Source: a virus
Direction: 5' to 3' (one strand)
IMG/VR virus record: IMGVR_UViG_3300036402_000045
Span: 25,783 to 89,782 of that record
Length of the DNA: 64,000 bases
Below the pieces are notes generated by a model that did not search any database, was not told the DNA's origin, and worked only from the letters and a program-made list of their open reading frames with translations. Both the position numbers and the translations under genes were made by a program. Positions 284 through 63,941 of the stretch are shown one piece after another. The first letter of the stretch is position 1. Every line of letters starts with the position of its first letter.

Positions 284-786
284 CAGTCTCCCGTCCCGTG
301 AGAAGGACGGATATACGGAGCGTTCATGGTGATCGTCGTGTGCTTCGCCACGATCTCAGCATCGATCTTGCCCTCCTGCACCGCCGCAGCAAGACCCGAT
401 GTATCGAGCGCCACGTTCACAGCGCTGGCGACACCGTTCGTCTTCAGAACGTCCATGAGCGCCCGCTGAACCTCCGCAGGAAGCTCGCTCAGGACGAGAG
501 AGCGCCGGTATGCCAAACGCCGCTGCGCGGGCTTGAGATCGCCGTAGAGAGCATCTCCGTCGATGTTGATGTTCTCGGTCTGGACCCGCGTGACCTTCGT
601 GCCGTCGTCAGCGGTCAGGCTCGTCGTTCCCCGAATCTGAAGCTCTTCGCAGATCGAATCCTGAATGCCCTTCTTCGTCTTCTTGGCACGACCCTCGATC
701 TCGGCTTGACGCTCGTACTCCGCGACGAGCACGAAGATCTCGGAGTCCTTGAGCCGCTTCTTAGCCTTCGTCGGCTTGTCAGGCAT
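283..786 (-). CDS. Hypothetical protein, 167 aa
   Basis: The start MPDKPTKAKKR at 786 is chosen because AAAGGAG lies 7 bases upstream. An upstream in-frame start would only add shadow sequence from the neighbouring gene. The N-terminus is lysine-rich and the rest looks like a soluble alpha/beta protein. It overlaps the SAP-like gene upstream by 8 bases and is coupled (TGATG) to the partial gene downstream. No family was recognised. Confidence 0.75.
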   Translation of the reverse strand: MPDKPTKAKKRLKDSEIFVLVAEYERQAEIEGRAKKTKKGIQDSICEELQIRGTTSLTADDGTKVTRVQTENINIDGDALYGDLKPAQRRLAYRRSLVLSELPAEVQRALMDVLKTNGVASAVNVALDTSGLAAAVQEGKIDAEIVAKHTTITMNAPYIRPSHGTGD

Positions 787-1036
787 CGGCGTTCTCCTTT
801 CGGATTTCGGCCAGAGCAAGCTGCGCCACCAGTGACGACGCCTTGGCCTTCGAGAAGCCCGTGATCCCGTGAGCCTTGGCAAGCTCCCGGAGATCCTTGA
901 CCTTCATCGCTTCGAGATCCGCCACGCCGAGACGCTTGGACCGAGCGATGCACTCGTTCGGAACCGAAGTGCGGTTGGTCGTGTTGTGATGGGCGCGGCG
1001 ATCGTGCTTGGCCGAACGCTGGTTCTTGGTCGCCAT
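779..1036 (-). CDS. Small protein with C-terminal Rho-N/SAP-like helical module, 85 aa
   Basis: Residues about 44-75 (MKVKDLRELAKAHGITGFSK and following) match the short helix-extended-helix pattern of Rho-N/SAP/HeH modules, which usually bind nucleic acid. The N-terminus is basic with many H and R residues. The start overlaps the stop of the upstream gene (TGATG), indicating translational coupling. A DNA- or RNA-binding role is inferred from the module only. Confidence 0.75.
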   Translation of the reverse strand: MATKNQRSAKHDRRAHHNTTNRTSVPNECIARSKRLGVADLEAMKVKDLRELAKAHGITGFSKAKASSLVAQLALAEIRKENADA

Positions 1037-2016: not shown

Positions 2017-2273
2017 TTCAGAATCTCGATCTCGTTGTCGTAGAAGTAGTAGATGTCGTGGAACCCGTTGATGCGGTCCATCAACCAATCGTGAACGGGA
2101 ATCCGAATCTCCGGACCCTGCCACGGACAAAGCAGAACCTTGTTCGGGTACTTGTCGGAGTCGTTCTCCAACAGAACGCCCTCAGACCCCTCGAAGAAGC
2201 GTCCAGAGGGATCGTTGTATGCAACCCGGACCCGAATGGCATCGGGGCTTGCAAGAGCCTCTTCGGGCGTCAC
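2013..2273 (-). CDS. Hypothetical protein, 86 aa
   Basis: This is a small soluble protein beginning MTPEEALASPDAIRV. Its central part (SEGVLLENDSDKYPNKVLLC) resembles short beta-barrel phage proteins but cannot be assigned. Its start overlaps the SNF2 stop by four bases, so it is translationally coupled to the helicase gene. Confidence 0.75.
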   Translation of the reverse strand: MTPEEALASPDAIRVRVAYNDPSGRFFEGSEGVLLENDSDKYPNKVLLCPWQGPEIRIPVHDWLMDRINGFHDIYYFYDNEIEILK

Positions 2274-4027
2274 AGGAGATCCCGAATGTTCTGGAGCGTG
2301 ATGCGCTCGATCTGTCGGCCACCGTCTCGCTCGATGGTCCGGTTGGCAAGCGCCCGCTTGTAGTTCAGGAGCGCTTCGATCCTCTGCTCGATCGTGTCTT
2401 CGGCCTGAAGCTCGATGACGTTGACCGTCGTGGCAAGAGCCTCCAGGCCACGCAGACCGCCCGCTGCGGAACGCCCGATGGCCTGATCGTTACCTGCCGG
2501 TGTCCAACCCTTGTCGGTGAAGACGACGTAGGTGGCAACGCCAAGGTTGATGGCCTCGCGGTTCGCATCGATGGTTCCGATGTAGAGCTTGCAATCCTCG
2601 TCGTTGTTGAACCTTCGGATTTCCTCCTGCCGACGACGCAGGTTGATCTCACCGGTGACATACGCCGGGGAATAAGCCTCAAGCTCCCGCTGGATGATGC
2701 GGGTTGCCTTGCTCCACTGGGAGAAGATGATCGCCTTCTCACCGTTGGCGACAAGCTCCCGAACGATGTCCTTCAGTTCGACGATCTTGGCCGAATCCTT
2801 CGACCCGCCGTAAAGCTCCGGAGAGAAGCAAGCCTGCTTCAGCCGGATGATCTGCGGAAGAGCACCGTTGATGTTTCGGATTTCGCCGTTGTCCATGCGA
2901 AGGATGAACTCGTCACGGATCTCGTTGTAGAGCGCCCGAGCTTCACGGGTCAGTTCGATCACGCGGGGAGCGATGATGACCTTCGGAAGATCCTTGAGCA
3001 CCTGATCCTTGCGACGACGCAGGGAGATGTTCTGAATGAAGTCCCGAAGCTCGCCCATCGGCTCCGGGCGGTAGCCAACCGTGGCACCGCCGTTCTTGAT
3101 GGAGATCGCGTCCACGAACCGGTCGTAGATCGGAAAGTCTTCCGGGTAGAGCTTGTGCAGAACGCTCCAGATCTCTTCCGGACGATTCAGGATCGGCGTG
3201 CCCGACATCATCAGCCAACGCTTGCCCTCAAGCTGGAAGAAGCCACGCGTGACCTGAGCATCCGGAGTCTTCACCCGATGGTGCTCATCAACCACGATGA
3301 AGTCGTACTCGAATCCGAAAAGCTCTTCGTTGGCGAACTCGTATCCGATGATCTTCTTGTGAACGTTGCCGTCCTCGTAGATCGGCTTGGCCCGGATCGC
3401 CTCAAAGTTGACGACGGTGATCTCGGCCCGCTTCTCGATCTGTGCAGAGCGCTCTGCGCGTGTTCCGTTGACGACCTGAACCTCGAAGTCGAACTTGTCC
3501 GTGGCTTCAGATTCCCAGTTGAACTTCGCGCTGTTCGGGCAGACGACGAGCGTGCGGAACTGCTTGCCCTTCTTCTCGGCCTTCACCGCCATGATGCGGA
3601 TCGCAGCCAGAAGCATGATGGTCTTCCCTAGACCCATCTCGTCATTGAGAAGATCGATCTCTTCCTCCAGGATCTTCCCGACCGCAACCTTCTGGAAGTT
3701 GTAGAGCTTGCCTTCGAAGCCCGGAATCCGAAGCTTCGGAATCGGCATATCCGCAAGCCGCTTCTCTTCGGCTCGCGTTAGCCGTGCGTAGACGCCCTTC
3801 GAAAGCTCTGCCATCGGGAACGCCAACGACAGACGATCGAAGTACCGCATGTTGAACCGGAAGAGCCACTTGCTCAATTCCTGGTCGTACTCCGCAACGG
3901 GATCGGTGCCGAGAGGAAGGATCTCGCGCATGATGACGCTCTGCGCCTCGTACTTCTCGCTGGAGTCACACATCAAGACGATGTGCTTGCCCCTCGGATC
4001 GTTCTTCTTCGACAAGGTGATCTTCAC
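2270..4027 (-). CDS. SNF2-family DEAD-like ATPase/helicase
   Basis: This is a superfamily 2 translocase of about 585 aa. Walker A is DEMGLGKT near residue 140, motif II is VVDEHHRVK (DEHH in place of DEAH), and motif III is MMSGTP. The C-terminal RecA-like domain contains IIFSQWSKATR and motif VI as QAIGRSAAGG, where most SNF2 proteins read QaigRxhRiGQ. The GTG at 4027 is chosen because it lies seven bases after the -10 box TAGATT, as in the other leaderless genes here; TTG at 4036 and GTG at 4033 are alternatives. It probably remodels DNA-protein complexes in early infection. Confidence 0.93.
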   Translation of the reverse strand: MKITLSKKNDPRGKHIVLMCDSSEKYEAQSVIMREILPLGTDPVAEYDQELSKWLFRFNMRYFDRLSLAFPMAELSKGVYARLTRAEEKRLADMPIPKLRIPGFEGKLYNFQKVAVGKILEEEIDLLNDEMGLGKTIMLLAAIRIMAVKAEKKGKQFRTLVVCPNSAKFNWESEATDKFDFEVQVVNGTRAERSAQIEKRAEITVVNFEAIRAKPIYEDGNVHKKIIGYEFANEELFGFEYDFIVVDEHHRVKTPDAQVTRGFFQLEGKRWLMMSGTPILNRPEEIWSVLHKLYPEDFPIYDRFVDAISIKNGGATVGYRPEPMGELRDFIQNISLRRRKDQVLKDLPKVIIAPRVIELTREARALYNEIRDEFILRMDNGEIRNINGALPQIIRLKQACFSPELYGGSKDSAKIVELKDIVRELVANGEKAIIFSQWSKATRIIQRELEAYSPAYVTGEINLRRRQEEIRRFNNDEDCKLYIGTIDANREAINLGVATYVVFTDKGWTPAGNDQAIGRSAAGGLRGLEALATTVNVIELQAEDTIEQRIEALLNYKRALANRTIERDGGRQIERITLQNIRDLL

Positions 4028-4034
4028 AAGCACC

Positions 4035-4064
4035 AATCTAACAGCTTCGGAATGTTTACGTCAA
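4035..4064 (-). promoter_or_regulatory. Class-1 promoter of the SNF2 unit
   Basis: Minus strand: TTGACG (4064-4059), an 18-base spacer and TAGATT (4040-4035). The spacer contains AAACATTCCGAAG, the common operator half-site. A second TTCCGAA lies just upstream at 4072-4078. Confidence 0.7.
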
Positions 4065-4220: not shown

Positions 4221-5060
4221 TCAGCGAACCTCGGAAGGCGTGATCTCGCTGCGTAGAATCCTCGCTCTGGCCCTCTCGATGCGCTCTGCGGCTGCGCGAG
4301 CATCGGCCTCGGCCATCTGTCGGCGTTGGGCCTCCAGACGCTCACGGCGCTCTCTGGCGATGCGCTCTTCCTCTGCTCGAACAGCCACCACGTTGACATA
4401 CCGGACCGGTGCCTGAATTCGGTACCGCGGGTGCTCCACTTGGCAGAAGTCTGAAGGGCAAGCGCCCTCCGTGCTGCCTTCGGACTGGGCGTTGCAATGA
4501 AAGCAACGAGGCGTGAACTCGATCGTCACGGCCCGCTGCGGGAAGTGAAGTGAACGCTCCGAGAAGAGCCGATCGCGGCCGATGTCGTGAACGAGCATCA
4601 GAAGCTCTTCGGCCATCGTCACGTACGTCTCTTCCGCATCAGAAGCGAACCGCCGCCACAGCTTCATCTCACCGCGACGCGTGATGTAGGCAAACGCCTT
4701 GTAACGCCCATCGATGTAGCGCTTGAGCACACGCTGACCCGTGAGATCGCCCGACGTAACGAGATGCACGTTGTAGCGGTGAGTTTCGGAAATCCCCGTA
4801 ACCTCGTAGACGCCATTGGGAACGTTCCAGCCATCGAACTCTGTCGCCACGTCATCGATGGAACGACCGGCAAGCTGCGTTGCCAGAGCCTCGACCGCTG
4901 CCGTCTGCTCCACGGTAAGGGTCAAGCTCGATCCGAGAACGTCGGAGTACCGCTGCATGTCTGCATGAAAGCGAACAGCCGGATCACTCAGGATCGAGAC
5001 AACCTGCGGGAACGCAGAGAACCACGCGGGATCGAGGTTGGTGATGTTGTAGGTCGGCAT
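4221..5060 (-). CDS. Hypothetical protein with Cys cluster, 279 aa, leaderless
   Basis: MPTYNITNLDPAWF starts at 5060, six bases after the TAGGAT -10 box, and no ribosome site is visible. Around residues 185-205 there is a CFHCNA ... CPSDFC cluster that could bind zinc. The C-terminal 60 residues are a long basic/acidic helix rich in R, E and A. No family was recognised. It forms a single-gene unit, followed directly by the promoter of RNA A. Confidence 0.85.
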   Translation of the reverse strand: MPTYNITNLDPAWFSAFPQVVSILSDPAVRFHADMQRYSDVLGSSLTLTVEQTAAVEALATQLAGRSIDDVATEFDGWNVPNGVYEVTGISETHRYNVHLVTSGDLTGQRVLKRYIDGRYKAFAYITRRGEMKLWRRFASDAEETYVTMAEELLMLVHDIGRDRLFSERSLHFPQRAVTIEFTPRCFHCNAQSEGSTEGACPSDFCQVEHPRYRIQAPVRYVNVVAVRAEEERIARERRERLEAQRRQMAEADARAAAERIERARARILRSEITPSEVR

Positions 5061-5121: not shown

Positions 5122-5520
5122 TCAGCGATCGGAATAGAGGCTGTTGTGAGCCTTCACCCAATCACCATCAGCGATGAGCTTGCCACGGGGCTTACCGAGG
5201 TAGTGCCACGCAGAGCACTTGATCTCGGTGCCTCTGATCGGGTCGTGAGCAACCACGTCCCAAAGGGCATAGCCCGCACCGCGCTCCATACGGTCGATGC
5301 TCTTCCACGACGGACTGTTGTGTCGGAACGTCAGGACATCGCCGGTGATGGTGCCCGACTGATCGAGCTTGGCGACTGGGTAGCTGCCGAACTCAGAGAC
5401 GAAGTAGATCTTCCCCTCGATGGTGCAGTTCGGAATGATGTCCTCGTAGCCACCACGGTCGTTCCACGCGTTCGGTCGGAGCGTTCCGTACACGAAGCAG
5501 GAGATGAGATGGTCGCTCAC
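5122..5520 (-). CDS. Gamma-glutamylcyclotransferase-like (AIG2) protein, 132 aa
   Basis: The N-terminal FVYGTLRPNAWND is the nucleotide-free GGCT/AIG2 loop signature. The DRMERGAGYALW segment carries the glutamate that acts as catalytic base in the family, and length and ending fit a stand-alone GGCT domain. Family members release 5-oxoproline from gamma-glutamyl amines. It is third in the 6959 operon (ATGA overlap with the 171-aa gene). The amidoligase and glutamine amidotransferase lie in nearby units, which suggests one gamma-glutamyl chemistry pathway. That pathway is inferred. Confidence 0.85.
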   Translation of the reverse strand: MSDHLISCFVYGTLRPNAWNDRGGYEDIIPNCTIEGKIYFVSEFGSYPVAKLDQSGTITGDVLTFRHNSPSWKSIDRMERGAGYALWDVVAHDPIRGTEIKCSAWHYLGKPRGKLIADGDWVKAHNSLYSDR

Positions 5521-6032
5521 TTCTGAGCCGCCTTTTCGAACAGGTCGATGATGACCGCAACATCGAAGGTGACGGTGTTGCCTTCGTTGCCTTGGAAGAA
5601 GGTGTAGTTCTCGTCTTCGACCAGACGAGTACCCGTGAGCGTCAGAACTTTCCGCTCAAACTTGATCCGCTGACTCTCTGATTCGATCCGCTTCAGAAGG
5701 TACTCTCTTTCGGAATCAAGCTGTTCTTGAACCCGCTCACGGAACCGCTCCGTCATCGGTGACAACGACTGGGGATGAGCAAGAACAGGAACCCACGTCA
5801 TGTTGTGGACGTTGAACGCCGCAAGAGCGACCTTCGTGGCTTGGCGCTGGACGCCGTACTCATCGGTGTAGCGCCCCTTCTTGTCGGCCTTGACGTACTC
5901 CTTCGTCTTGGCGTCCCGATACCAACGCTCGATGTCAAGAACGAGCGACAGGAACGGACGAGAGGACGAGTACCGACCACCGGGTCGGGAGTAGATGACC
6001 TCCCGACCCTGCTCGATCTCCGAAAGCTTCAT
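5517..6032 (-). CDS. Hypothetical protein, 171 aa
   Basis: It begins MKLSEIEQGREVIYSRPGG and has a basic middle and a long charged helix near residues 95-130. It is coupled by ATGA overlaps both to the 289-aa gene upstream and to the GGCT-like gene downstream, so the three are probably made together. No family was recognised. Confidence 0.8.
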   Translation of the reverse strand: MKLSEIEQGREVIYSRPGGRYSSSRPFLSLVLDIERWYRDAKTKEYVKADKKGRYTDEYGVQRQATKVALAAFNVHNMTWVPVLAHPQSLSPMTERFRERVQEQLDSEREYLLKRIESESQRIKFERKVLTLTGTRLVEDENYTFFQGNEGNTVTFDVAVIIDLFEKAAQK

Positions 6033-6898
6033 GCCTGCACCCCAGCGGCACGCAGAGCGGCCTCAAGAGCGTCACGGGACATCGTTCCCCGACCGGCGAT
6101 GTTGTGCGTTGCGGCAAGCCGACGAAGGGCGTCACGGTTCAAACCGGAAAGCCCGTCGTCGTCGGAACCAACGATCGCCCGCATGATGCCTTGTGCCTCG
6201 GCAAGCTCGTCATCGGTGTATTCCCGCTCTTCGCCGTCCTCGTCGTCCTCGATCTCGCCTGAGAGCATGGCGTTGATCTCATCGATCCCCTGCGCGGCCT
6301 CGTCCTCGATCAGAGCATCGACGTAATCGGCAACCGCCGCCATCGTCGTGTCGGACGGAACCTCTTCGACCACCAGACGGCCCGAGATGTTGTCGGCGCG
6401 TCCTTCGGAAACCAGCGCGTCCCATGTCTCCTGCGTGTAGATGGCGCGGGCCACGACACCGGGGATGCGGCCCTCACGAACCCGAGCACGGAACATCGTC
6501 GGCTTGGCGGCGTAGAAGAGCGAGCACGCCCAAGCGAACGAGTCCAGGCGAGAACCCGTCGAAGCGTTGATGTGCTGGCGCAGGCCCGTGAACAGATCGA
6601 TCACGGTGAACCGCTTCAGCGTCAGCGTTCCCGGCGTGTTCGCAGCGGACAGGCTCATGCGCTGGCCCGGTCGATAGCTGTACCGCTGCCAGATGTGACC
6701 GGCGACGTGGATCGTCGGCACCGGCAGCGACCGGTACGACTCACAGATCGCCGTGACCATCGGCATGACGGCCTCGATCTTCTCGGCGTCCGTCTCCAGA
6801 CGCCACGGCTTCGCCTCGAAGAGAGCGACAGCGGCAGCAACCGCATCCTCTCGGATCTCTCGGTACTTCAGGTGTGGCCGCTGAACGGTCATCGGCAT
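6029..6898 (-). CDS. Hypothetical protein with C-terminal HeH/SAP-like module, 289 aa
   Basis: The ATG at 6898 has GAAAGGGAG nine bases upstream. Residues 1-190 form an unassigned domain. Then comes an acidic linker (EIEDDEDGEEREYTDDE), and the last 35 residues (LNRDALRRLAATHNIAGRG and following) look like a Rho-N/HeH module. It heads the operon that contains the GGCT-like protein. A DNA-associated early protein is possible, but so is a substrate of the neighbouring amidoligase set. Confidence 0.8.
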   Translation of the reverse strand: MPMTVQRPHLKYREIREDAVAAAVALFEAKPWRLETDAEKIEAVMPMVTAICESYRSLPVPTIHVAGHIWQRYSYRPGQRMSLSAANTPGTLTLKRFTVIDLFTGLRQHINASTGSRLDSFAWACSLFYAAKPTMFRARVREGRIPGVVARAIYTQETWDALVSEGRADNISGRLVVEEVPSDTTMAAVADYVDALIEDEAAQGIDEINAMLSGEIEDDEDGEEREYTDDELAEAQGIMRAIVGSDDDGLSGLNRDALRRLAATHNIAGRGTMSRDALEAALRAAGVQA

Positions 6899-6930
6899 TG
6901 CGCTCCCTTTCGGTTGTAGTCGTCGTGCTG

Positions 6931-6959
6931 AGTATGGATCGGAATGTTTCCGATGTCAA
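6931..6959 (-). promoter_or_regulatory. Class-1 promoter with full palindromic operator
   Basis: Minus strand: TTGACA (6959-6954), a 17-base spacer, CATACT (6936-6931). The spacer holds the complete palindrome TCGGAAACATTCCGA, two TTCCGA half-sites separated by three bases. A leader of about 30 bases with a normal ribosome site follows. Confidence 0.7.
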
Positions 6960-6968
6960 GAAGGTTTC

Positions 6969-7460
6969 TCATGCATCCTCGGTTTCCTTGTCACCAACCA
7001 GAAATCTCGGACCATTGACAGAGACGATCGCCCAACGGAACCAAAGCACCGTCTCGCAATCCCATCCGTAGAGATCGTGAGGCTGTGAGTGGCGCGTACG
7101 CCACTGACCCTCTTCGGTCAGGTGCATACCGTCGTACTCCCGAGCCATCGCTTCGAAGTCAAGACCGGTGGTATACCGATCCCCCACGCCGAACCGCTTG
7201 TGCAGATCATTGAGATCCGCAACGGTGTCAACGACAGCGAGGTTCGGGTTGTCGATCGTCTCCAGATCCCAGAGCGTGAACGGCGGTCCACCGAATTTTT
7301 CGGAAACACACCAGTCAACCCAATGGCTCTCGTTGGTCGGATGAGGGGGAGAAGTCCACAACCCACCACTGAGCGGCTTCTTCCACGGATGCGTGCAATT
7401 CACGATCGGCTTGAACGACTGATAACGAGGCTTCTTCACGCCTTGGAAGATGACCTTCAC
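6969..7460 (-). CDS. Hypothetical protein, 163 aa
   Basis: It is rich in W, H and P (GGLWTSPPHPTNESHWVDWC near residues 32-51; LYGWDCETVLWF near residues 130-141). The repeated W/H pattern and the late W-D-C-E-T segment recall small phage enzymes with an ADP-ribosyltransferase-like fold, but I cannot confirm this. Its start overlaps the amidotransferase stop (ATGA), so it is co-translated with that enzyme. Confidence 0.8.
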   Translation of the reverse strand: MKVIFQGVKKPRYQSFKPIVNCTHPWKKPLSGGLWTSPPHPTNESHWVDWCVSEKFGGPPFTLWDLETIDNPNLAVVDTVADLNDLHKRFGVGDRYTTGLDFEAMAREYDGMHLTEEGQWRTRHSQPHDLYGWDCETVLWFRWAIVSVNGPRFLVGDKETEDA

Positions 7461-8419
7461 TGATCCGCCTTGCGCTTCTGCGGCTGGCCGTCAGGGAAGA
7501 GACGCTTCTGCGCCCTCTCGTCCTGCCTGCGCTCCAGATAGGCACGGATGGCGGCGTCCCTGCCCATCCCGTATTCGAAGCCCGTAGAGACAGCCACAGG
7601 CCGTGTCGGTGACGTTGCAGAACCCGTTCCCCGGTAAGACGGATCGGTTCCGAACCTCACCGCGATCTCTGCGGCGGTCAACACCTTCGGACGAGGACGA
7701 GGCCGGAACGTCTTCCGCTCCACGATGTCACCGTACGAAACGGCAAGCACCCGATCTTCGGAAACCGTCGAGAACTTCGTGAAGACGATATCCGGCTCAA
7801 GCTGAAGCAGAGCTTCCTTGTCCGAGGCCCAGATCAGGTTCCCGCGGTCGGTCCACCCGAGCGTCAACTGACGGCCCGTGCTCCGAGCGATGTAGATCGT
7901 GTCGGGTTCCGTGATCCGGCTGTAGACCGCAACCATCGCGCCCTTGATCTTCCGAAGCCCCTTGATGTGGCCCCACTTGTTGACCGCAGCGAAGATGGCC
8001 TCGGAGTCAACCTCGGTCTTCGGATCTTCCCGACCCGTCACGTCCAGAATCTCTTCGAAGTTCGTGAGAACGCCGTTGTGAACGCCCACGATGTCACCGT
8101 GCGGGATCGGATGGTTGTTCCGCACGTCAGCGGGATCACCGTTGGTGGCCCAGCGCGTGTGGCCGATGACCCAGTAGGCGTCATCCGAGACGTTCTTCAG
8201 AATGTTCTCCAGAGCGCTGTTCGTGTCACAGCGACCGGGGAACTTGGCCCACGTCACGTCGGGCTTCGTCGGATCGGTGTCCTTGTTCGGAACCCACTGT
8301 GCCCACCCGTAAGCGTGCGGTCCCTGTCGGACCAGAGCAGGGAAGAGGATGGCGGCGATCTGCGCCGTGCTCAGATCCTCTTCGTTCTCGTTGTATGAGA
8401 TTCCCCAAATTCTGCACAT
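7457..8419 (-). CDS. Class II glutamine amidotransferase, 320 aa
   Basis: The chain starts MCRIWGISYN, so Cys2 becomes the N-terminal nucleophile of an Ntn-type glutaminase (GATase II). Further family marks are the GHTRWATNG loop near residue 90 and DIVGVHNGVLTNFEE near residue 115. The last ~80 residues are basic and low in similarity to synthetase partners, and no synthase domain is attached, so ammonia must go to a separate protein. The amidoligase next to it is the obvious partner. The ribosome site GAGAGGAAGG precedes the ATG. Confidence 0.92.
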   Translation of the reverse strand: MCRIWGISYNENEEDLSTAQIAAILFPALVRQGPHAYGWAQWVPNKDTDPTKPDVTWAKFPGRCDTNSALENILKNVSDDAYWVIGHTRWATNGDPADVRNNHPIPHGDIVGVHNGVLTNFEEILDVTGREDPKTEVDSEAIFAAVNKWGHIKGLRKIKGAMVAVYSRITEPDTIYIARSTGRQLTLGWTDRGNLIWASDKEALLQLEPDIVFTKFSTVSEDRVLAVSYGDIVERKTFRPRPRPKVLTAAEIAVRFGTDPSYRGTGSATSPTRPVAVSTGFEYGMGRDAAIRAYLERRQDERAQKRLFPDGQPQKRKADQ

Positions 8420-8447
8420 CGGCTATCGCCTTCCTCTCTCGTAGTTG

Positions 8448-8476
8448 ATTGAATCATGCTTCGGAATGTTTGTCAA
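8448..8476 (-). promoter_or_regulatory. Class-1 promoter of the amidotransferase unit
   Basis: Minus strand: TTGACA (8476-8471), a 17-base spacer with AACATTCCGAAG, and TTCAAT (8453-8448). The same -10 hexamer is used at 9949. Confidence 0.6.
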
Positions 8477-8477
8477 C

Positions 8478-8711
8478 TCAGTCATCGTCAAGCGCGTTTT
8501 CGCAAACCGCCTGAATCGTGATGATCGCCGTCCTGAGTCCGTCCACGTCATCAAGAGACGTAGCTGCCGCCATTCCGATTGCGTGGACGTATCGCTCCCA
8601 CTTATCGCTTGCGACCTTGGCGCACTCGACCGGGATATCCAGCTTCTCTCCCCGGCTTGCGCGGACCTGCACAGCAATGGCCGCTTCCTCTGCTTGCTCG
8701 CGAGCGCCCAT
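8478..8711 (-). CDS. Hypothetical protein, 77 aa
   Basis: The start MGAREQAEEA at 8711 overlaps the upstream stop (TGATG). It is a mostly helical, acidic protein ending ALDDD and runs up to the amidotransferase promoter. No family was recognised. Confidence 0.7.
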   Translation of the reverse strand: MGAREQAEEAAIAVQVRASRGEKLDIPVECAKVASDKWERYVHAIGMAAATSLDDVDGLRTAIITIQAVCENALDDD

Positions 8712-8968
8712 CACATGCCCCTTACTCGTTCTGCGTTGGCAACTGCGTGCGCCACGATGTCGGGCGCGGCTTGAGCCGAGATGACGTTGAGCAGATTGTC
8801 AACGACATCACACAACGAGAGGATCGTGGCCTTCTGATCCTCAACGATCGGCTCCCAAATATCACAAGCGTCCTTCGCTGCTTGTCTCCGAGCGCAGATG
8901 TGAAGTGGATGCCTGTCGTCGCACGCCGACGAACAAGCTCCCGCCATGACCGTCTCTCGGACGCTCAT
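8711..8968 (-). CDS. Hypothetical protein, 85 aa
   Basis: The ATG at 8968 overlaps the amidoligase stop (an adjacent ATG at 8971 is also possible). The N-terminal half has several cysteines and histidines (ACSSACDDRHPLHICARR) that could bind a metal, followed by a helical C-terminus. It is the middle gene of the amidoligase unit. Confidence 0.7.
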   Translation of the reverse strand: MSVRETVMAGACSSACDDRHPLHICARRQAAKDACDIWEPIVEDQKATILSLCDVVDNLLNVISAQAAPDIVAHAVANAERVRGM

Positions 8969-9906
8969 CATGCACCCACGAACCGACGCTGAGGCTTGGA
9001 GTCCTTCCAGAGAACCCGCAGGTTCTTCCAGTCCTCCTTTGACATGACCCGCTTCGTGTCCTTCGAGTCGGTCGTAAGGATCTGCTGGAGACGCAGGAGC
9101 ACGGCGTTTTCGGAAACCGTTCCCTGCTCCATCGAACCGAGCCTGTAGCTCTTCGCAACCGACCGGCTGTAGCCGTTGCGGGCATCGTCCACGATCGCCA
9201 TGCACAGAGCGAGGTAGGTCTGAACCCGACGAGGGTTGACGCTGCCGTTGAACACTCTGAACTCAACCGTGCCGTGGACCCAGTAGGAGCGGTAGTTGAC
9301 GGCGTAGTAGCGGTCCAGGCTGTTCGCCCACGCCCGTCCGTAACGGCTGTGCCTTCCGCTCTGGCCGAGGACGCCACGCCCGTTGGCGGTGTGACCGTCC
9401 CAAACGTTCTTCAGTTCCTCGATGGTCCGCACCTTCATAATCTCGCGGGCCGTCGCCTCCGGAACCGGCTTGCAGTACGTCGAAGCTCCGGTGCGGATCG
9501 TGTTCCAACCGCTCGAAGCGATGCGGTAGATCGCGTCCTCGAACTTGTAGAAGAACCGAGCAATCGCCGCCATCTGCTTTCCGGTCAGCGGAGTGCCGTC
9601 GTAGTTCTTCGCCTCGATGTGAACGTGGATGCCCGTCGCTTGTGAAGGCCGCATCCCGGCGTCCTGGAGAGCCTGAACCGCCGTGGTGACTTGCGCCCGT
9701 TGCGCCGGATCATCGAAGTCCAGCGGAGGGGAAACAAGCTCACCACCGCGGCTCACGGAACCGTCGTACTTCATCATCCAATCGGTCGGATCGTTTCCGG
9801 TGTGGCGACGACGCTCATCCTTGACGCCAAGACCAGCGGCACGAAGCGAAGCAATCGCATCGTCCATGTCACCCTCGAACTCGATCTCGATTCCGAAACG
9901 TCGCAT
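8968..9906 (-). CDS. Amidoligase (GS-like COOH-NH2 ligase), 312 aa
   Basis: It matches the amidoligase enzyme family. GIEIEFEG at the N-terminus, DGSVSRGGELVSPPL near residues 48-62 and GIHVHIEAKN near residue 92 give the Mg-ATP-binding Glu and His residues, and HGTVEFRVFNGSVN near residue 215 gives the conserved E-R pair. The family joins amino groups to side-chain or terminal carboxylates using ATP. It heads its own unit behind the 9977 promoter, with ribosome site AGGGAGCC. The target is unknown. Confidence 0.93.
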   Translation of the reverse strand: MRRFGIEIEFEGDMDDAIASLRAAGLGVKDERRRHTGNDPTDWMMKYDGSVSRGGELVSPPLDFDDPAQRAQVTTAVQALQDAGMRPSQATGIHVHIEAKNYDGTPLTGKQMAAIARFFYKFEDAIYRIASSGWNTIRTGASTYCKPVPEATAREIMKVRTIEELKNVWDGHTANGRGVLGQSGRHSRYGRAWANSLDRYYAVNYRSYWVHGTVEFRVFNGSVNPRRVQTYLALCMAIVDDARNGYSRSVAKSYRLGSMEQGTVSENAVLLRLQQILTTDSKDTKRVMSKEDWKNLRVLWKDSKPQRRFVGA

Positions 9907-9948
9907 TGGCTCCCTTGCCTGTCCTTGTCGGCTCGTCCCGACAACCTC

Positions 9949-9977
9949 ATTGAATCAGAATGTTTCGGTGGTGTCAA
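9949..9977 (-). promoter_or_regulatory. Class-1 promoter of the amidoligase unit
   Basis: Minus strand: TTGACA (9977-9972), a 17-base spacer with CCGAAACATTCTGA, and TTCAAT (9954-9949). A TTCCGAA lies just upstream at 9982-9988. Confidence 0.6.
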
Positions 9978-10361: not shown

Positions 10362-10673
10362 TTAGAAGGAGTAGTCGTGGAACTTGTGGCGACCAGGCAC
10401 CAAACGGGTTCCGGTGTGCATGGACTGACCGCGCTGGACCCACTTGCCGTTCGAGCGCAGCGTGAAGATGATCTTGCGACCGTTCTCGTCTCGCTCATAG
10501 CTGTAGCTCTGGTCTTCGCTCATCCCGTGCGTGTCGGTTCGAGTGGCGGTGTCCTGCTGCCACGTCACGGACTTGCGAGAGGGAGAAGCGCCCACGATGG
10601 TTCCGGCGTGACGGTCGGACCACATGCAGATCGTTGCGCCTTCCCCGATCACGAAGCTCTGAAGGGTTTCCAT
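10362..10673 (-). CDS. Conserved phage hypothetical protein, 103 aa, leaderless
   Basis: METLQSFVIGEGATICMWSD starts at 10673, six bases downstream of the predicted -10 box. The central part is rich in S, T and R and the C-terminus reads RLVPGRHKFHDYSF. It looks like a small conserved actinophage protein, but no function is known to me. Confidence 0.8.
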   Translation of the reverse strand: METLQSFVIGEGATICMWSDRHAGTIVGASPSRKSVTWQQDTATRTDTHGMSEDQSYSYERDENGRKIIFTLRSNGKWVQRGQSMHTGTRLVPGRHKFHDYSF

Positions 10674-10679
10674 GCCCTC

Positions 10680-10708
10680 AGTCAACATCACTTCAGAATG
10701 TTTGTCAA
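10680..10708 (-). promoter_or_regulatory. Class-1 promoter, leftward
   Basis: Minus strand: TTGACA (10708-10703), a 17-base spacer with AACATTCTGAAG, and a weak -10 TTGACT (10685-10680). The ATG at 10673 follows after six bases. The -10 box is poor, so confidence is lower than at the other sites. Confidence 0.45.
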
Positions 10709-10739
10709 CAGGAAATCTCACGGAACGTTCGGAAGGTCG

Positions 10740-12119: not shown

Positions 12120-13394
12120 ATGACCGATCTCGACGGGGCGCTTGTCGCCTATGCCGTCCGTCGTCCGCTTGGGTTGACCGAGCTTCAGCGCGCTGGCATC
12201 ACAACTGAGTACCTGACCGATGACTATGCGAAGGCATGGGATTGGGTCAACCGCATGAAGCGCCAGCACGGTGCGATCCCTTCGCTTCGGGTCGTGCAGC
12301 AGCGCTATGCGGATCTCGATCTCACACCCGCTCGTCAACGAGACGTGCCGATGCTGGTTTCCGAAGTGAAGCAGCGGAAGAAGCTCATCGATTTCCACGA
12401 CGCAATCGAAAACGCTTCCTCTACCGCTCGATCGGTGGACGACATCGACCGTGCGCTCTCGCAGCTTCAGGCCCAACTCAACAGCCTCAACGTACAGGGG
12501 TTGGGCAACCAGTCGATCGTTGACCTGTTCAGCCGTTCCGCCAAACGACGGATGATGAAGGATCTGAAGCAGCGCCGGTCCGGGAAGATGATCGGCATCC
12601 CCACGGGGCTGAAGCGCTTCGACTTCGTGACGGGAGGACTCGTTTCCCGAAAGATGGTCGTCGTCATGGCGCGTACCGGCGTCGGCAAGTCATGGCTCAA
12701 CCTGCTCTTCGTTGCGAGCGCTGTCCTCAACGGCAACAAGGTCGTGCTCTATCCGTTGGAGATGACGCTGGAGGAAACGGCTCTTCGCCTCTACACGATC
12801 TTCAGCCAGAAGATGTTCCGAGGAAGCGACACTCTGAAGAACCTCGATCTGACGATGGGACGCTTCAGCCCTCGCAAGGTCGTGCGCCTGCTCAACATGC
12901 TGGAGGACAAGTACGAAGGTCAGTTGTTCGTGGCCGACGTTGCGAGCCTCAGCGATCCCTACACGCCCGAGCGGGTGGAGTCTGAAGTTGAGCTTTACAA
13001 GCCCGACATGTTCTGGGTCGATTACCTCACGCTCCTGAAGGCCCCGAACGGTCGCAGCGGTGCGGAGGACTACACATCGATCAAGGTGCTCTCCAACGCC
13101 ATCAAGGGGATCGCACAGCGACAGGGGTGTGTCGGTGGTGCATCGGCTCAGGTGAACCGCGACGCCATGAAGGTGCGAAGCTTCATCCCCCGTGTTGAGC
13201 ACATCAGCTACGGCGATTCCATCGGCCACGATGCGGATCAGATTCTTTCACTGGGGAGGAAGGATGAGCACCTTTACTACGGCCTCGTCAAGAACCGTGG
13301 CGGTCCCGAGATCGGGCGCACGCGCATGAAGGCGTTCTTCGATGAAGGACGTATCGAAGAGGACGAGCAACAGGAGTCCGAGGATGACGATTGA
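12120..13394 (+). CDS. dnaB: DnaB-type replicative helicase, 424 aa
   Basis: The RecA-like C-terminal domain has Walker A ARTGVGKS near residue 183, then VVLYPLEMTLEE (the H1a-type segment), Walker B FWVDYLTLL near residue 300 and HISYGDSIGHDADQ near the end. The N-terminal 120 residues fit a reduced DnaB N-domain. It unwinds DNA at the fork with the primase encoded at 16832. The start lies six bases after the class-2 -10 motif and has no ribosome site. The acidic tail (EEDEQQESEDDD) may contact partners. Confidence 0.92.
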   Translation: MTDLDGALVAYAVRRPLGLTELQRAGITTEYLTDDYAKAWDWVNRMKRQHGAIPSLRVVQQRYADLDLTPARQRDVPMLVSEVKQRKKLIDFHDAIENASSTARSVDDIDRALSQLQAQLNSLNVQGLGNQSIVDLFSRSAKRRMMKDLKQRRSGKMIGIPTGLKRFDFVTGGLVSRKMVVVMARTGVGKSWLNLLFVASAVLNGNKVVLYPLEMTLEETALRLYTIFSQKMFRGSDTLKNLDLTMGRFSPRKVVRLLNMLEDKYEGQLFVADVASLSDPYTPERVESEVELYKPDMFWVDYLTLLKAPNGRSGAEDYTSIKVLSNAIKGIAQRQGCVGGASAQVNRDAMKVRSFIPRVEHISYGDSIGHDADQILSLGRKDEHLYYGLVKNRGGPEIGRTRMKAFFDEGRIEEDEQQESEDDD

Positions 13395-13551
13395 GTTCAT
13401 GCGCTGTCCCTCCTGCAACAACGAGCACCTTAGGGATCATTGCGAAAGCCCGTCGTGCCCGTGGAAGAAGTGTCGCAACTGCAATGCGTACGGTCCCAAG
13501 TCACCGAATCCGAAAGTTCCGTGGCGTTCCGACAAGAAGGATGAACGATGA
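13384..13551 (+). CDS. Zinc-ribbon protein, 55 aa
   Basis: The ATG lies inside the end of dnaB. The protein has CPSC, CESPSC and CRNC cysteine pairs, the pattern of a small zinc-binding module, and a basic C-terminus. Its coupling to dnaB suggests a replication accessory, but this is not shown. Confidence 0.75.
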   Translation: MTIEFMRCPSCNNEHLRDHCESPSCPWKKCRNCNAYGPKSPNPKVPWRSDKKDER

Positions 13552-22428: not shown

Positions 22429-22655
22429 CCTACTGGCGAGTTCTATTCGTTGGTGGTCAAGAGATGTTCCTGGCAACCAAGTCCGAAGACACCGACATCA
22501 TTCCGGCCCTTGGCGAAACGGAGTTCATGTTCGTCACCGCAGACGATCACAATTCTCCTGTTCTCATTGGGCCAACCCGCAACCTCTTGACGATCACCAA
22601 GGCATCGCAAGAGATGTATGACGAGTTCACCCAAAAGAACGGAGTTCTGAAGTGA
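22425..22655 (+). CDS. Hypothetical protein, 76 aa
   Basis: The GTG start overlaps the previous stop (GTGA). The product begins MTYWRVLFVGGQEMFLATKS. No family was recognised. Confidence 0.65.
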   Translation: MTYWRVLFVGGQEMFLATKSEDTDIIPALGETEFMFVTADDHNSPVLIGPTRNLLTITKASQEMYDEFTQKNGVLK

Positions 22656-22951
22656 GCGACATCGCACAGCCAACATTCATCTTCAACATGGGCGACCGTG
22701 TGAAGGACGTTGTGAGCGGCTACGAGGGCATCGTCATGGCCCGGTTCGAATACTGGACCGGGTGCAACCACTACGGCGTTGAGGGACAAGCTCAGGTGGG
22801 AACCAAGCTGCCCTACGAGAGCTTTGATGAGCAACGCCTTGAAGTGGTTCAGTCCAACGCCGTGCGACTGGCACGGGACTACAAGGCAGAACCCGCTTCT
22901 CGTCGTTCCCCTGACGCCGCCGCTCCACGCGACCCCCACCGACCGGCCTGA
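22652..22951 (+). CDS. Conserved phage hypothetical protein, 99 aa
   Basis: The GTG start overlaps the previous stop. The segment GDRVKDVVSGYEGIVMARFE followed by GCNHYGVE resembles the short beta-barrel proteins widespread in phages (KOW/SH3-like). The C-terminus is P/R-rich. The function is unknown. Confidence 0.7.
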   Translation: MSDIAQPTFIFNMGDRVKDVVSGYEGIVMARFEYWTGCNHYGVEGQAQVGTKLPYESFDEQRLEVVQSNAVRLARDYKAEPASRRSPDAAAPRDPHRPA

Positions 22952-22961
22952 AAGGTTTCCA

Positions 22962-23243
22962 ATGGACTTCGGAGAGATTCCGCCCGAGGCCGAGGCACAG
23001 CGTCCTTGGCTCAAGAAGATCAACATCGGACCGCCCCGTGATGACGAAGCTGGCGTGATCGGTTCGTTGCCTGCGCTCATGGGCAACGAAGTCAAGGAGG
23101 GCATTGGGGAGATCGGCGTTATCCGAATCTGTGCCACGCCAAGCTCTGACGATCTCCTGCGCCTTCAGGCCGGTGAGAAGATCTGGATCGAGATCTGGTC
23201 GTCCGTGATGTATCCGATCGCAATCGAAGTCGGCAAGACCTGA
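22962..23243 (+). CDS. Hypothetical protein, 93 aa
   Basis: The ATG at 22962 follows GAAAGG. The protein is mixed alpha/beta and ends IWIEIWSSVMYPIAIEVGKT. No family was recognised. Confidence 0.7.
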   Translation: MDFGEIPPEAEAQRPWLKKINIGPPRDDEAGVIGSLPALMGNEVKEGIGEIGVIRICATPSSDDLLRLQAGEKIWIEIWSSVMYPIAIEVGKT

Positions 23244-23521
23244 TGATCGTTGCGAAGTTCCTGGCCCCTCCGGGCTTCGACTGGCGGTTCGAGGATCACC
23301 CTCGCTATGGCCGCATGTGGCATCTCGGCAAGGTGCTTGACCCCACCGACCCTTGGAGCCGCCAGTACGTCCCGATGGGCCGAATGGGCCGGGACTTCGC
23401 TCCGATGTGGACCGTGACCGAAGAGACGTTGCGAGTCGCCTTTTATCCCGCGCTTGTTATCCGAATGATTCTGGAAGAAAGCGCACACCACCTGAAAGTC
23501 ATCGAAACCCACCATGCCTAA
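23243..23521 (+). CDS. Hypothetical protein, 92 aa
   Basis: The start overlaps the previous stop (TGATG). It is rich in aromatics and prolines (FDWRFEDHPRYGRMWHLGK). Its end overlaps the polymerase start by eight bases. No family was recognised. Confidence 0.7.
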   Translation: MIVAKFLAPPGFDWRFEDHPRYGRMWHLGKVLDPTDPWSRQYVPMGRMGRDFAPMWTVTEETLRVAFYPALVIRMILEESAHHLKVIETHHA

Positions 23522-35412: not shown

Positions 35413-36369
35413 CTACTCCGTAACACTGACCTGCACATGGGCAGGCCATCCCGGTGCCCATCCTTCGACCGAGAGGATCGTCCCGTTGCTGCCGGGAAGG
35501 TCATCGGCAGCGAAGCCGAGCTTGGCGTTCTGGTACTTCTGGTCAGCCTCCGGGCGCAGGCCAGGTTCGAGAGCACCCTTGATCTGGGTCTTCGACCACG
35601 GAAGACGGACCCAACCGAACCCGGCATAGGGACCGGAGCTTCCGGTTCCAACGATCACGTCGTAGGTGTTCAACTGCATGTCAATTTCCTCCGATGAGAG
35701 AAGCGTGAGCCACGCCGGGGGCGCGGGAGTTGGCGGCGTTGGTTCGGAAATCACCATGCCACCACGAACGAACTGCATTACTGCACCGCCAGGGCAAGCG
35801 GTCTGCTTCCAATCGGCATGAACGTGCCGCTCGGTTCCGGAGCCGCGGGCCTCGTACCACTCGAAGACATTCCGAAGTCCACGTCGGGCATCCACAGTGA
35901 ACTCATCGCCCTCGCCCATCAAGACGCAATGGGCGTAGCTGCGATCGTTCCCGGTATTGGTGCCGTTGGCAGCCGTTCGCCATCCGTACCAGCGTCCTTC
36001 GAAGATGAACCCGTGACGGCAAGTGACATCGGAATATGCGATGTCATTCCAGCCCTGGTGCTCCATGTGGTACTTCTGAATTCCACGGAGCTTGGTGGCG
36101 CAGGACGTGTGCGGATAGTCCCCGAGGCCCGGACCTTCCCAGTGGGCCGTGTTGCCGCGTGCGGTCGTTAGACCGGTCCTGCCCGTTGCGGCCTTGGCTC
36201 CCCAAGAAACCCGAGGGATGAACTTCGCAGGCGGCGGCGTTCCCTTGACGCTGAGGATGGCGTTCTGGAAAGGCGGGGACTCGATCTGGCCGACGTACTC
36301 CAGAACCTCGTAAAGCTCCAGGAGATCCGCAGGAACGGAAAGATGTTCTGCTTCGAGAAGCTCAGTCAA
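35413..36369 (-). CDS. Endolysin: N-acetylmuramoyl-L-alanine amidase, 318 aa
   Basis: The amidase_2/PGRP domain spans about residues 50-200: WGAKA, NTAHWEG with the first zinc His (residue ~76), CRHGFIFEGRWYGWRTAANG, and HVHADWKQTACPGG with the second His, Lys and Cys. It cleaves the bond between the glycan and the stem peptide. The last ~90 residues form an unassigned domain that may bind the wall. The start is TTG at 36369, overlapping the caspase-like gene. Confidence 0.92.
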   Translation of the reverse strand: MTELLEAEHLSVPADLLELYEVLEYVGQIESPPFQNAILSVKGTPPPAKFIPRVSWGAKAATGRTGLTTARGNTAHWEGPGLGDYPHTSCATKLRGIQKYHMEHQGWNDIAYSDVTCRHGFIFEGRWYGWRTAANGTNTGNDRSYAHCVLMGEGDEFTVDARRGLRNVFEWYEARGSGTERHVHADWKQTACPGGAVMQFVRGGMVISEPTPPTPAPPAWLTLLSSEEIDMQLNTYDVIVGTGSSGPYAGFGWVRLPWSKTQIKGALEPGLRPEADQKYQNAKLGFAADDLPGSNGTILSVEGWAPGWPAHVQVSVTE

Positions 36370-37144
36370 GGGGACTCCTGAATGCTTGGTAGAGCGTCGC
36401 GCCGAACTGCGGCGTCTGCGGATAGGACGGAGAAGGCAGCGCCAAACGGATGCGGCGATACCACTCGCGGAACGTCTTCACGTCAGGACCGAGAGCATCG
36501 ATGGCCGCTCGGGTGAAGGCTCCGTTGGGACGATTTCCGAAGGAGGCGTCGTAGCTGTATTCCGGATCGTCGCAACCCGAGATCAGAACCGGACCGCTTC
36601 GACTCGTCGCCCGGATGAACGTGCGCTCTGCGGCGATGGCAGCCTCGACGCTCACGGGAACCGAAGGGATCAAGCCGGGAGAGATGAACTTCGGCTTTCC
36701 GGGAGGGGGAGCAGACGCCATGATCCCTCGGGCCACGGTTCCGGAGTGGCAGGAATCCGAAAGAACCGTGATCTGCGTTCCGTGGCGAGCACGGCCAAAG
36801 ATCGTGTGCATCTCGTCATCGATGAGAAGGCCACCGCTGGCGTAGTCGTGACAGCACAGCGCTTCGTCACGACCATCCGGCTCGTCACCGTCGCCGTCCG
36901 GAACCCACGTCCCGTGACCCGAGTAGCAGAACACGAACCGATCCCGGTACTTCATCGAATCCACGATGCCGAGAAGTTCAGCCACGATCCGGGCCTTGGT
37001 AGCCGAGGAATCCAGAAGCGTCGTGACGGTGTAGCCGCGCGACTGAAGAACCTGTGACCAGTCCATCGCATCGTTGATGCAACCGGAAAGATCTCCCGCT
37101 CCGGGGTAGTCGTTGATCCCTACGCACAAGGCAATACGTCGCAT
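36362..37144 (-). CDS. Metacaspase-like cysteine peptidase (C14), 260 aa
   Basis: It has the caspase fold marks: RRIALCVGINDYPGAGDLSG at the N-terminus, the catalytic His in VFCYSGHGTW (H77) and the catalytic Cys in VLSDSCHSG (C132), the exact type-I metacaspase motif. The acidic GDGDEPDGRDE loop also fits. No prodomain or second domain is present. The gene lies between a tail gene group and the endolysin, with overlapping stop/start on the amidase side. A role in lysis, maturation or host cell death is open. Confidence 0.9.
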   Translation of the reverse strand: MRRIALCVGINDYPGAGDLSGCINDAMDWSQVLQSRGYTVTTLLDSSATKARIVAELLGIVDSMKYRDRFVFCYSGHGTWVPDGDGDEPDGRDEALCCHDYASGGLLIDDEMHTIFGRARHGTQITVLSDSCHSGTVARGIMASAPPPGKPKFISPGLIPSVPVSVEAAIAAERTFIRATSRSGPVLISGCDDPEYSYDASFGNRPNGAFTRAAIDALGPDVKTFREWYRRIRLALPSPSYPQTPQFGATLYQAFRSPLD

Positions 37145-63500: not shown

Positions 63501-63941
63501 AGCAGACCGATAGAGGTTTACATCAGCACCGAAGTTCATGGTGGCGTCGAACCGCTTCGCTCCCGTGATCGTCTGTGCCGTTGCCAGCGTGACGTAGTTG
63601 TTTGGGAGCAGATTCAGTTCGATCTGCGTTGCGATGTCGATCGGCTTCCACCGAGCGGTTCCGGTATCCCACGCCAGAACGCTGTCTTGAGCAAGTCCCG
63701 CAAGCGCAACGTCCTTCAGACCCGCGATCGTGTGCGGTCGGTCAACGAACTGCGCCTCGACCTGATCCAGAGCCGCCTGCACGTCTCCAGCGGTAACCCA
63801 GACGTTTCCCGTGGCGTCGTAGGCGATGTTCGGAGCCGTGTCGGGCGGATAAACCGCAAACAACGACGACACTTCGATGATGTCGGGCGCGTCCTCGCGA
63901 ACGAAGACACGATCAACGATGTCCATTGAAGTGACGGTCAT
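57501..63941 (-). CDS. Giant fibre-like protein with degenerate repeats, 2146 aa
   Basis: After an N-terminal domain (QAALDQVEAQFVDRPHTIAG, then VLAWDTGTARWKPIDI, a stalk-start motif of tail fibres) the chain carries at least 12 copies of a ~30-residue unit of the type AQTGDLTQWQDSAGTVLAKV, spaced 80-250 residues apart among beta-rich G/T/N regions. This is the layout of long receptor-binding fibres. Its place upstream of the portal is unusual for a tail fibre. The ATG overlaps the upstream stop. Confidence 0.85.
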   Translation of the reverse strand: MTVTSMDIVDRVFVREDAPDIIEVSSLFAVYPPDTAPNIAYDATGNVWVTAGDVQAALDQVEAQFVDRPHTIAGLKDVALAGLAQDSVLAWDTGTARWKPIDIATQIELNLLPNNYVTLATAQTITGAKRFDATMNFGADVNLYRSAADTLKTDDAFSVGGSVFLRPAADPNVLIVPTAANYRGIAVRGFTAQTANLQEWQDPVGAVLARVSSTGNIYSPYISTTFGLFANGGNGVYGAALGVLASTTNGHIGAVVRGAVGNSASLQEWHDNAGTWKARINTPAQSGVPLLDVTDTGYYVGVARFTSAVSGGSVQLAAGMANPQGESIFAGGATGGNRPATVVAVLPAADKVGLLVRGAAAQIGNLQEWQDSASAKRQWVDASGQSFYATSQVANQTSKITDLGMYFSRSTDGTYTTWIQSTAGTTPALQLQAQGAIDYYPGGGALQFRMATSDMSAPNGGFTAGTYFRGSSNGRLGIISDPSLGDDIGIVLQRGTRSVQGSNALVSFNYGAYGTAIAGMELARITTEGRLGLGTVAPAAMIHANISAASVVGQITRGAAAQTGDLAQWQDSAAAIVAKITAAGLIQGSSLNARNAGQGAAFIDAYDTTKAASAFTIDGYGRMALGLASYGYTWISTPTGSDLQLNPGQGVLVTPGGGAFTGLKVNGRGVAATVTNKALTGNVATITTAAAHGLSVGRRVSVAGVDATFNGNFSITATTATTFSYAKTAADVASVASAGSVAGDIQAASIESWHNGISETLMLLNPNAPAISNGTAGNGGDVTLRSFKPWGAGVGPVIQFEALSSGENLAPAAYASITGGKENVSITNGRGMFSVFTSGAVWGRRLDIGSEGGLVINPLAQSAAGTIMQVIGLSAGHTGNALEVRNSASTVLTKINEAGGVTSYDASTTGFTLRSAPGSETPIFQVLKNGASGAVLASPSSTMILKSGVPLQVLIDASNHSPGAIPIALRAHVSQTANLSEWQDSTGAVYSAVGPTGWNSVMSPAGVGGLLGSALFEARTNNGSHYLFRGSTVGGAQFGIKATNIIEWTGTPLQFIPTGGGGPGVQFTTYTASVAVAAFRGVASQTGDLTQWQDSASTVLARVTGAGYPRFHQGLGVGTLGDAQGQGSIIHVRDDGSATMAYLDRQSSTASAGIDFRRAMAGTTALDAANRVMGRLLAWGFDGGSYRTAAAIDLTSDAPFAAGSAPGRISFYTTLSATTGIVERVRIDNAGSTSHYPAVNANGVRVKNPAGATANGAPFIIEDEASSNPLMRISHLGGIALGLAAAWPSEGQVRMAGSNPGIYFEPAGALKWLFYTAGGSTMYFRDAVNSRMHETLQPGADANAAVSYFDSRVHAGTATNQNAQLSSIVSSPSTPGLLVKLAASATADALQIKDSADNPLLYVPAAGGEVRFHGRTFSTVGGDLANGHPWLGYNIRGAGATTSRDSTGTVAGIRAQGNFVNIFAVVSGTAGASITPKFQVGTSTTSFYSDAGVLNATVDNNGTIWSLNGLTLPAGVGTTYDNKWLTYSTGGSYFIRDTVNAVMAAQFTPGTSPTTIFNGAVQARAVAATDVPLLAKAAAAQTADLTQWQDSAGAVLSRVRANGENLVPYYTGYGFGATTGQYGMYQNGGASLEFLLGGAVKLTVGTNVSVTAGTTFVANGQYFRNNGSTDTYIEQQSGVRYWQIGVFGTDWKVRDLTGTTDRLFIASAGPTTVTPASASLAALVAKGAVSQTGNLQEWQNSAGTVLAKVDSTGRVFGNGFTGVSVSEPPVATLHFKAMAGQVAPTLRAENSGGASFFRVAADGYPEADVLYAADIRGGRSGLTGTNGALLTLTGTHSVVFNNGQNKITQNDPVNYSMGFYGADTAGAGGARLLELGATTQINARNAASIGLIVKGAVSQTGDLTQWQNSAGTVLAKVTASGGFASYGGPTYLGGELAFPGTGSEMAVYTTDAGAHQFFFDHRGGNAGSGWNFRNGATSMFRIDGSGNVTVPTASGVLDAWGQVRVGGLAGSGAPGALITGSKSASEVAFVARGFAGQTGDLLQIQNSAATVVARITASGAAQFTDIGPNRFVDALVPTRTVMRTHADGNLSLFVDTSGFGGGVGVVKIADATTVPTTNVAGGLLYSEGGALKWRGSAGTVSVLAPA

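Follow-up and report, generated by a model that had tools for sequence, protein, structure and literature searches.

A lean three-enzyme member of the phage amidoligase/class II glutaminase/γ-glutamyl cyclotransferase cassette and its tentative role in peptidoglycan amidation

A 64,000-nucleotide stretch of viral DNA (the window; bases 25783 to 89782 of the 89,782-base virus record IMGVR_UViG_3300036402_000045, G000) carries genes for an amidoligase, a class II glutamine amidotransferase (GATase), and a γ-glutamyl cyclotransferase (GGCT)-like protein within a few kilobases (kb) of one another. This locus is a lean member of a known phage cassette combining amidoligase, class II glutaminase, and GGCT. 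The cassette idea itself has already been published; the novelty lies in a member with three enzymes that lacks the COOH-NH2 ligase. Prediction of the cassette dates back about 15 years, and the present locus together with its relatives in Arthrobacter phages indicates that three enzymes can be enough. The window has a G+C content of 58.6% and contains genes for a phage portal, a major head protein, a tape-measure protein, and an endolysin, along with a replication region encoding RecA, ThyX, DnaE, and DnaB. At the DNA level, the phage matches phages of Gordonia, Mycobacterium, and Microbacterium; the matches of DnaE include Streptomyces phages, but the portal protein resembles that of Firmicutes phages, and the host signals differ.

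The genes for all three enzymes are intact and located on the minus strand, where a first-pass annotation made from the sequence alone had placed them. The amidoligase (312 amino acids, aa; positions 8968 to 9906) belongs to Amidoligase_2 (PF12224; Pfam E value, 1.4e-28; PHROG 2443) and is a predicted ATP-dependent carboxylate-amine ligase. It possesses residues G5, E7, and E9, the motif G92-x-H94-x-H96, residues R199 and N204, and the motif T213-x-E215-x-R217. An alignment of 59 relatives contained 14 invariant residues, and the listed active-site residues were invariant in the 59 sequences, except for T213, which was conserved in at least 90%. The protein is homologous to gp18 of phage LUZ24 (hhalign probability, 98.3%). 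It is the Pfam assignment that suggests a glutamine synthetase-like fold; the match to the YbdK subfamily was weak (E value, 0.0067), and neither a GCS2 protein nor a COOH-NH2 ligase yielded a usable hhalign signal, the same result as for the negative control. A relative of solved structure was not found by sequence search.

The GATase (320 aa; 7457 to 8419) is a stand-alone enzyme of the GATase_6 family (PF13522; E value, 2.3e-16; PHROG 14519) with an N-terminal Cys2 and is the predicted ammonia supplier. Its sequence contains the motifs HTRWAT, HNG, and VDSE, and Cys2, R89, N115-G116, and D138 are invariant in the alignment. It matches the glutaminase half of GlmS (PDB 1xff; E value, 4.6e-11); by Pfam, it consists of GATase domains only, and a C-terminal synthase domain (SIS or Asn synthase) was not found. 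The third protein (132 aa; 5122 to 5520) is a GGACT/AIG2-type γ-glutamyl(amine) cyclotransferase-like protein (PF06094; E value, 1e-9; 39.4 bits at a cutoff of 22.8; PHROG 2520). It features a YGTLR loop and a predicted catalytic Glu79, which are invariant or conserved in six aligned sequences, and its profile matches YtfP (1xhs; E value, 1.8e-13). PADLOC gave no match for the three enzymes, and the trio was rejected as a defense system.

A phage "peptidoglycan modification" cassette has been named in PSA-HP1 and other podoviruses (PMC5498523), in the LUZ24-like phage U17 (PMC11945000), and in Sinorhizobium phage PhiM6 (PMC6256558). Known members are LUZ24, PaP3, phiRIO-1, and PSA-HP1, as given in the passages of PMC5498523 and PMC11945000 that refer to Iyer 2009 and Hardies 2013; in their citing passages, the U17 and PhiM6 papers both refer to Hardies 2013, and the PhiM6 paper refers to Iyer 2009 as well. 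In LUZ24, one stretch encodes a COOH-NH2 ligase, an amidoligase, a glutaminase, a RimK-like ATP-grasp protein, and a GGCT. The LUZ24-type cassette and the window have in common an Amidoligase_2 protein, a class II glutaminase, and a GGCT, clustered among early or replication genes. They differ in that LUZ24 gp19 has a long C-terminal extension not present in the window glutaminase and in that the window genes are split into three units containing small extra proteins. A RimK/ATP-grasp search of G000 gave no match, but this search was weak: it failed to detect LUZ24 as well, although the annotation of LUZ24 gp21 includes RimK.

In the direction of transcription on the minus strand, the window locus comprises the amidoligase gene (9906 to 8968), genes for an 85-aa and a 77-aa protein, the GATase gene (8419 to 7457), genes for a 163-aa, a 289-aa, and a 171-aa protein, the GGCT gene (5520 to 5122), a gene for a 279-aa protein, and that of an SNF2-type helicase. 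The closest relative, IMG/VR contig 3300028007_000001 (L011), is colinear with this locus: its order is amidoligase, GATase, a 310-aa relative of the 289-aa protein, GGCT, a 218-aa protein, a small gene, and SNF2 helicase. Identities to the window proteins amount to 53% for the amidoligase, 54% for GATase, 37% for GGCT, and 53% for the helicase, whereas the 85-, 77-, 163-, and 171-aa genes are missing. In this relative there are two amidoligase-GATase pairs, about 10.7 kb apart and on opposite strands (loci L011 and L091 of the one contig), with GGCT accompanying only one of them. The same three enzymes are also adjacent, with 24 to 33% identity and near an SNF2-type helicase, in the Arthrobacter phages Laroye, Salgado, Shrooms, Kovu, and Ottawa. 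There the order is helicase-(small genes)-GGCT-amidoligase-GATase instead of the amidoligase-GATase-289-GGCT-helicase order of the window, and the amidoligase has an extra N-terminal region compared with the window enzyme. Contig L071 contains an adjacent trio in the order seen in the Arthrobacter phages. Arthrobacter AIG2-like and amidoligase genes had been noted in 2017 (PMC5513430).

Co-occurrence was assessed by whole-contig searches of 40 viral contigs chosen for an amidoligase and 40 ThyX-bearing control contigs, the latter being longer on the whole. The viral relatives of the amidoligase were found with an alignment query, while a single-protein query gave none, and ThyX was chosen as control query after a DnaB helicase query had given no matches. 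Zero counts from 80 ThyX loci with flanks of only 2 kb were not used; the whole-contig control was used instead. GGCT was present in 17 of 40 amidoligase contigs versus 2 of 40 controls (Fisher P = 6e-5) and GATase_6 in 9 of 40 versus 0 of 40 (Fisher P = 1e-3), the P values being optimistic as the contigs are not fully independent. No amidoligase exceeded the cutoff in the 40 controls; one sub-threshold match was located 2 kb from one of the two control GGCT genes.

Gene geometry is a stronger argument for linkage than these contig counts. GATase lies directly downstream of the amidoligase and on the same strand in all 16 amidoligase loci that have a GATase. Of 80 amidoligase loci, 30 have a GGCT no more than 3 kb from the amidoligase, with both genes on the same strand in 29 of these, and loci fetched by GATase contained an amidoligase within 3 kb in 65 of 80 cases. 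Unsupervised neighbor clustering placed GATase and GGCT among the three commonest amidoligase neighbors, the third being a ParB-like/DNA methylase module; the GATase count in this clustering is inflated, half of the loci having been fetched with GATase. The first-pass annotation had treated the three enzymes as a set, and this is borne out, as they co-occur and adjoin one another in unrelated phages, well above the ThyX control. It had also let its proposal depend on co-occurrence in related phages, and the search for it supported the linkage. That the three are independent auxiliary genes sharing the early region by chance, without a common pathway, is highly improbable in view of the strong enrichment over the control and the order and orientation conserved in unrelated phages, even though in many relatives one or two of the genes are missing and the window genes occupy three separate units under a general early promoter.

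The promoter in question, as read from the sequence, has the form TTGAC(A/G)-17-(TTCAAT or similar), with AACATTC(C/T)GA within the spacer. All three elements are on the minus strand. Specifically, the promoter-operator of the unit comprising the amidoligase and the 85- and 77-aa genes (9936 to 9977) reads TTGACA ... AACATTCTGA in the 17-base spacer, followed by TTCAAT; that of the GATase-163 unit (8440 to 8476) reads TTGACA AACATTCCGA ... TTCAAT; and that of the 289-171-GGCT unit (6920 to 6959) reads TTGACA TCGGAAACATTCCGA ... CATACT. The earlier description, in which three adjacent units share one operator, is correct, with matching elements at 9977, 8476, and 6959. AACATTCYGA occurs seven times in the window versus 0.31 expected copies. 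The same promoter-operator also precedes the genes for the SNF2 helicase (4064), the 279-aa protein (5095), and a 123-aa protein (10708), and at least five further early sites were located in the 26-kb part of the record preceding the window, so that at least 11 early sites exist overall. Because of these additional sites, the element represents general early-gene control and is not specific to the enzyme set. As evidence of a dedicated trio regulon the shared operator was rejected, the same element being present at many other early genes. The early promoter-operators are presumably under one repressor.

Going beyond the genes, active-site residues, cross-phage linkage, and early promoter context, all of which are directly observed, we tentatively propose that the trio performs glutaminase-fed, ATP-dependent carboxylate amidation of peptidoglycan stem peptides, with GGCT clearing or editing γ-glutamyl products; we give this proposal somewhat less than an even chance. 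Early in infection, the shared promoter-operators would be released and the three units made. Judging from what is known of the enzyme families, the glutaminase would hydrolyze glutamine and pass ammonia to the adjacent amidoligase, which would activate a carboxylate with ATP and convert it to an amide. The conserved amidoligase-GATase order predicts such a direct ammonia hand-over. Following the published wall hypothesis, the carboxylate would most likely be a free one on a peptidoglycan stem peptide or its precursor (the α-carboxyl of D-Glu or that of meso-diaminopimelic acid, meso-DAP). The GGCT-like enzyme, if it acts as its family does, would strip γ-glutamyl-amine side products or edit γ-glutamyl linkages, releasing 5-oxoproline. 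The benefit put forward in the literature is that an altered wall might exclude later phages (superinfection exclusion) or be readied for the phage's own lysin.

We favor the wall as target for two reasons: it is the one proposed in the literature, and peptidoglycan amidation is a known activity of class II glutaminase enzymes. A wall-modifying function was among those suggested by the first-pass annotation, and it matches the hypothesis published for the same cassette (PMC5498523, PMC11945000, PMC6256558). LtsA amidates DAP in Corynebacterium (PMC7920481). AsnH of Lactobacillus casei is needed for sensitivity to phage J1, asnH mutants being about 10^4-fold less sensitive, and its ortholog in L. 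lactis amidates D-Asp in the cross-bridge (PMC3885529). These AsnB-type enzymes and the window set share a class II glutaminase with Cys2 feeding an amidation, and the same kind of target is proposed. However, in LtsA and AsnH the synthetase is the C-terminal domain of the same protein, whereas the window ligase is a separate Amidoligase_2 protein; LtsA and AsnH are therefore analogues rather than members of the cassette.

Several observations weigh against wall amidation by a dedicated set. A peptidoglycan-synthesis gene was not evident among the recurrent neighbors in viral loci, and cellular loci gave no wall-gene context, the bacterial amidoligase occurring alone or with GGCT only. Substrate biochemistry for any cassette member was not found in the accessible literature. 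Furthermore, many amidoligase contigs are devoid of GATase or GGCT, and the enzymes can therefore work separately or recruit host partners. Finally, the COOH-NH2 ligase (PF14395) was not found in G000 by a search that detected it in the LUZ24 positive control; as it is absent also from the Arthrobacter phages with the trio, we treat it as optional, not defining. These Arthrobacter phages grow on laboratory hosts, which makes the wall-modification hypothesis open to direct test.

The set might instead modify host or phage proteins or peptides, with the amidoligase forming isopeptide or γ-glutamyl bonds on a side chain or terminus and GGCT removing them, which we consider unlikely. RimK modifies a ribosomal protein, and LUZ24 adds a RimK-like ligase to its cassette; papers of the Aravind group predict protein modification by related phage peptide ligases, e.g., R2K ATP-grasp enzymes (PMC7824862, PMC4431377). 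However, no small protein is conserved with the cassette across all phages, and the candidate partners in the window are lineage-specific, except for the 289-aa protein with its counterpart in one relative. In 25 viral loci (e.g., L055 8946 to 9170), the gene immediately after that of the amidoligase encodes a small protein with a median length of 93 aa, but by inspection this protein is unlike the 85- and 77-aa proteins of the window.

The 289-aa protein (6029 to 6898) is encoded by the first gene of the GGCT unit. As judged by reading its sequence, one stretch of it is acidic and its C-terminal tail is SAP/Rho_N-like; it belongs to no Pfam family. The tail is 60% identical to a protein of Gordonia phage UBSmoodge. 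The counterpart of the 289-aa protein in L011 (12135 to 13067; 310 aa; 26.6% identity) is the sole GATase-GGCT neighbor kept in the closest relative. The 171-aa protein (5517 to 6032), encoded between the 289-aa protein and GGCT, is lineage-specific and has no relatives in the tested loci; the same lack of relatives was found for the 85-aa (8711 to 8968) and 77-aa (8478 to 8711) proteins, whose genes are co-transcribed with that of the amidoligase. The gene of the 163-aa protein (6969 to 7460) overlaps the end of the GATase gene; the protein matches phrog_8582 (function not assigned; E value, 4.5e-10), and its sole relative is in gut phage MT835477. All five genes are on the minus strand. Of these co-operonic proteins, all suggested earlier as possible partners or substrates of the enzymes, only the 289-aa protein has a counterpart, and only in the closest relative. 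The suggestion is not supported for the other four as general partners or substrates, since they are absent from L011 and, apart from the gut phage relative of the 163-aa protein, from the tested loci. A role of the small co-operonic proteins as conserved substrates was rejected, as they are not conserved across relatives. Relatives of the 123-aa gene upstream of the amidoligase (10362 to 10730, minus strand) occur close to the amidoligase in 16 viral loci, where they are encoded on the opposite strand. Rho_N/SAP-like segments occur in several early proteins (779 to 1036, minus strand; G000 22572 to 23264; and 6029 to 6150, minus strand), two of them recognized as Rho_N by Pfam and that of the 289-aa protein by eye.

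Synthesis or repair of a small metabolite for use by the phage (a γ-glutamyl amide, a modified nucleotide, or a thiol pathway product), including a possible DNA-base modification, is a further explanation that we likewise regard as doubtful. In known pathways, small molecules are the substrates of glutamine synthetase-like ligases, class II glutaminases, and GGCT enzymes alike; the GATase weakly matches the ergothioneine synthesis protein EgtC, and the cassette is placed among replication genes. On the other hand, genes for queuosine-type modification or thymidine hypermodification were not found among the proteins scanned, in a scan that was not exhaustive and revealed only ThyX, a dCTP deaminase, and a weak DNA methylase; moreover, ThyX-bearing contigs lack amidoligases (0 of 40 above the cutoff). 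It is also conceivable, if decidedly improbable, that the lean trio suffices both to write and to erase a γ-glutamyl or amide mark on a nonwall target (a host protein or small metabolite), with the acidic 289-aa protein serving as adaptor or substrate. If true, this would be a reversible amide modification encoded by a phage, of a kind not previously described.

An SNF2-type helicase is encoded beside the cassette (2270 to 4036, minus strand; Pfam SNF2 E value, 2.9e-36), and L011, L071, Shrooms, Ottawa, and Kovu have a homolog close to theirs. Because the helicase recurs also beside loci without the full enzyme set, it probably belongs to the early replication region rather than to the cassette. 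The 279-aa protein encoded between GGCT and the helicase (4221 to 5060, minus strand) gave no significant phmmer match to the tested loci; by eye, the 218-aa protein at the same place in L011 looks similar and has a Cys-rich tail.

Elsewhere in the window, a gene at the contig end, upstream of the portal gene (57501 to 63926, minus strand), encodes a 2141-aa protein without a PHROGs match. A 260-aa caspase-domain protein (36362 to 37144, minus strand; Peptidase_C14 E value, 6.8e-24; PADLOC caspase E value, 1.6e-13) is a phage-encoded caspase-like protease, and within the late module its gene lies directly upstream of that for the endolysin. The NADAR-domain protein encoded at 1280 to 1750 on the minus strand (E value, 3.2e-29), whose match to the NCBIfam NADAR anti-phage family was below the cutoff, possibly counters ADP-ribosylating defenses. 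Left of the window, G000 12963 to 13420 contains few genes, many CGGAACGTTCCGA-like palindromes, and operator-like motifs, and this stretch could be an origin or a partition site.

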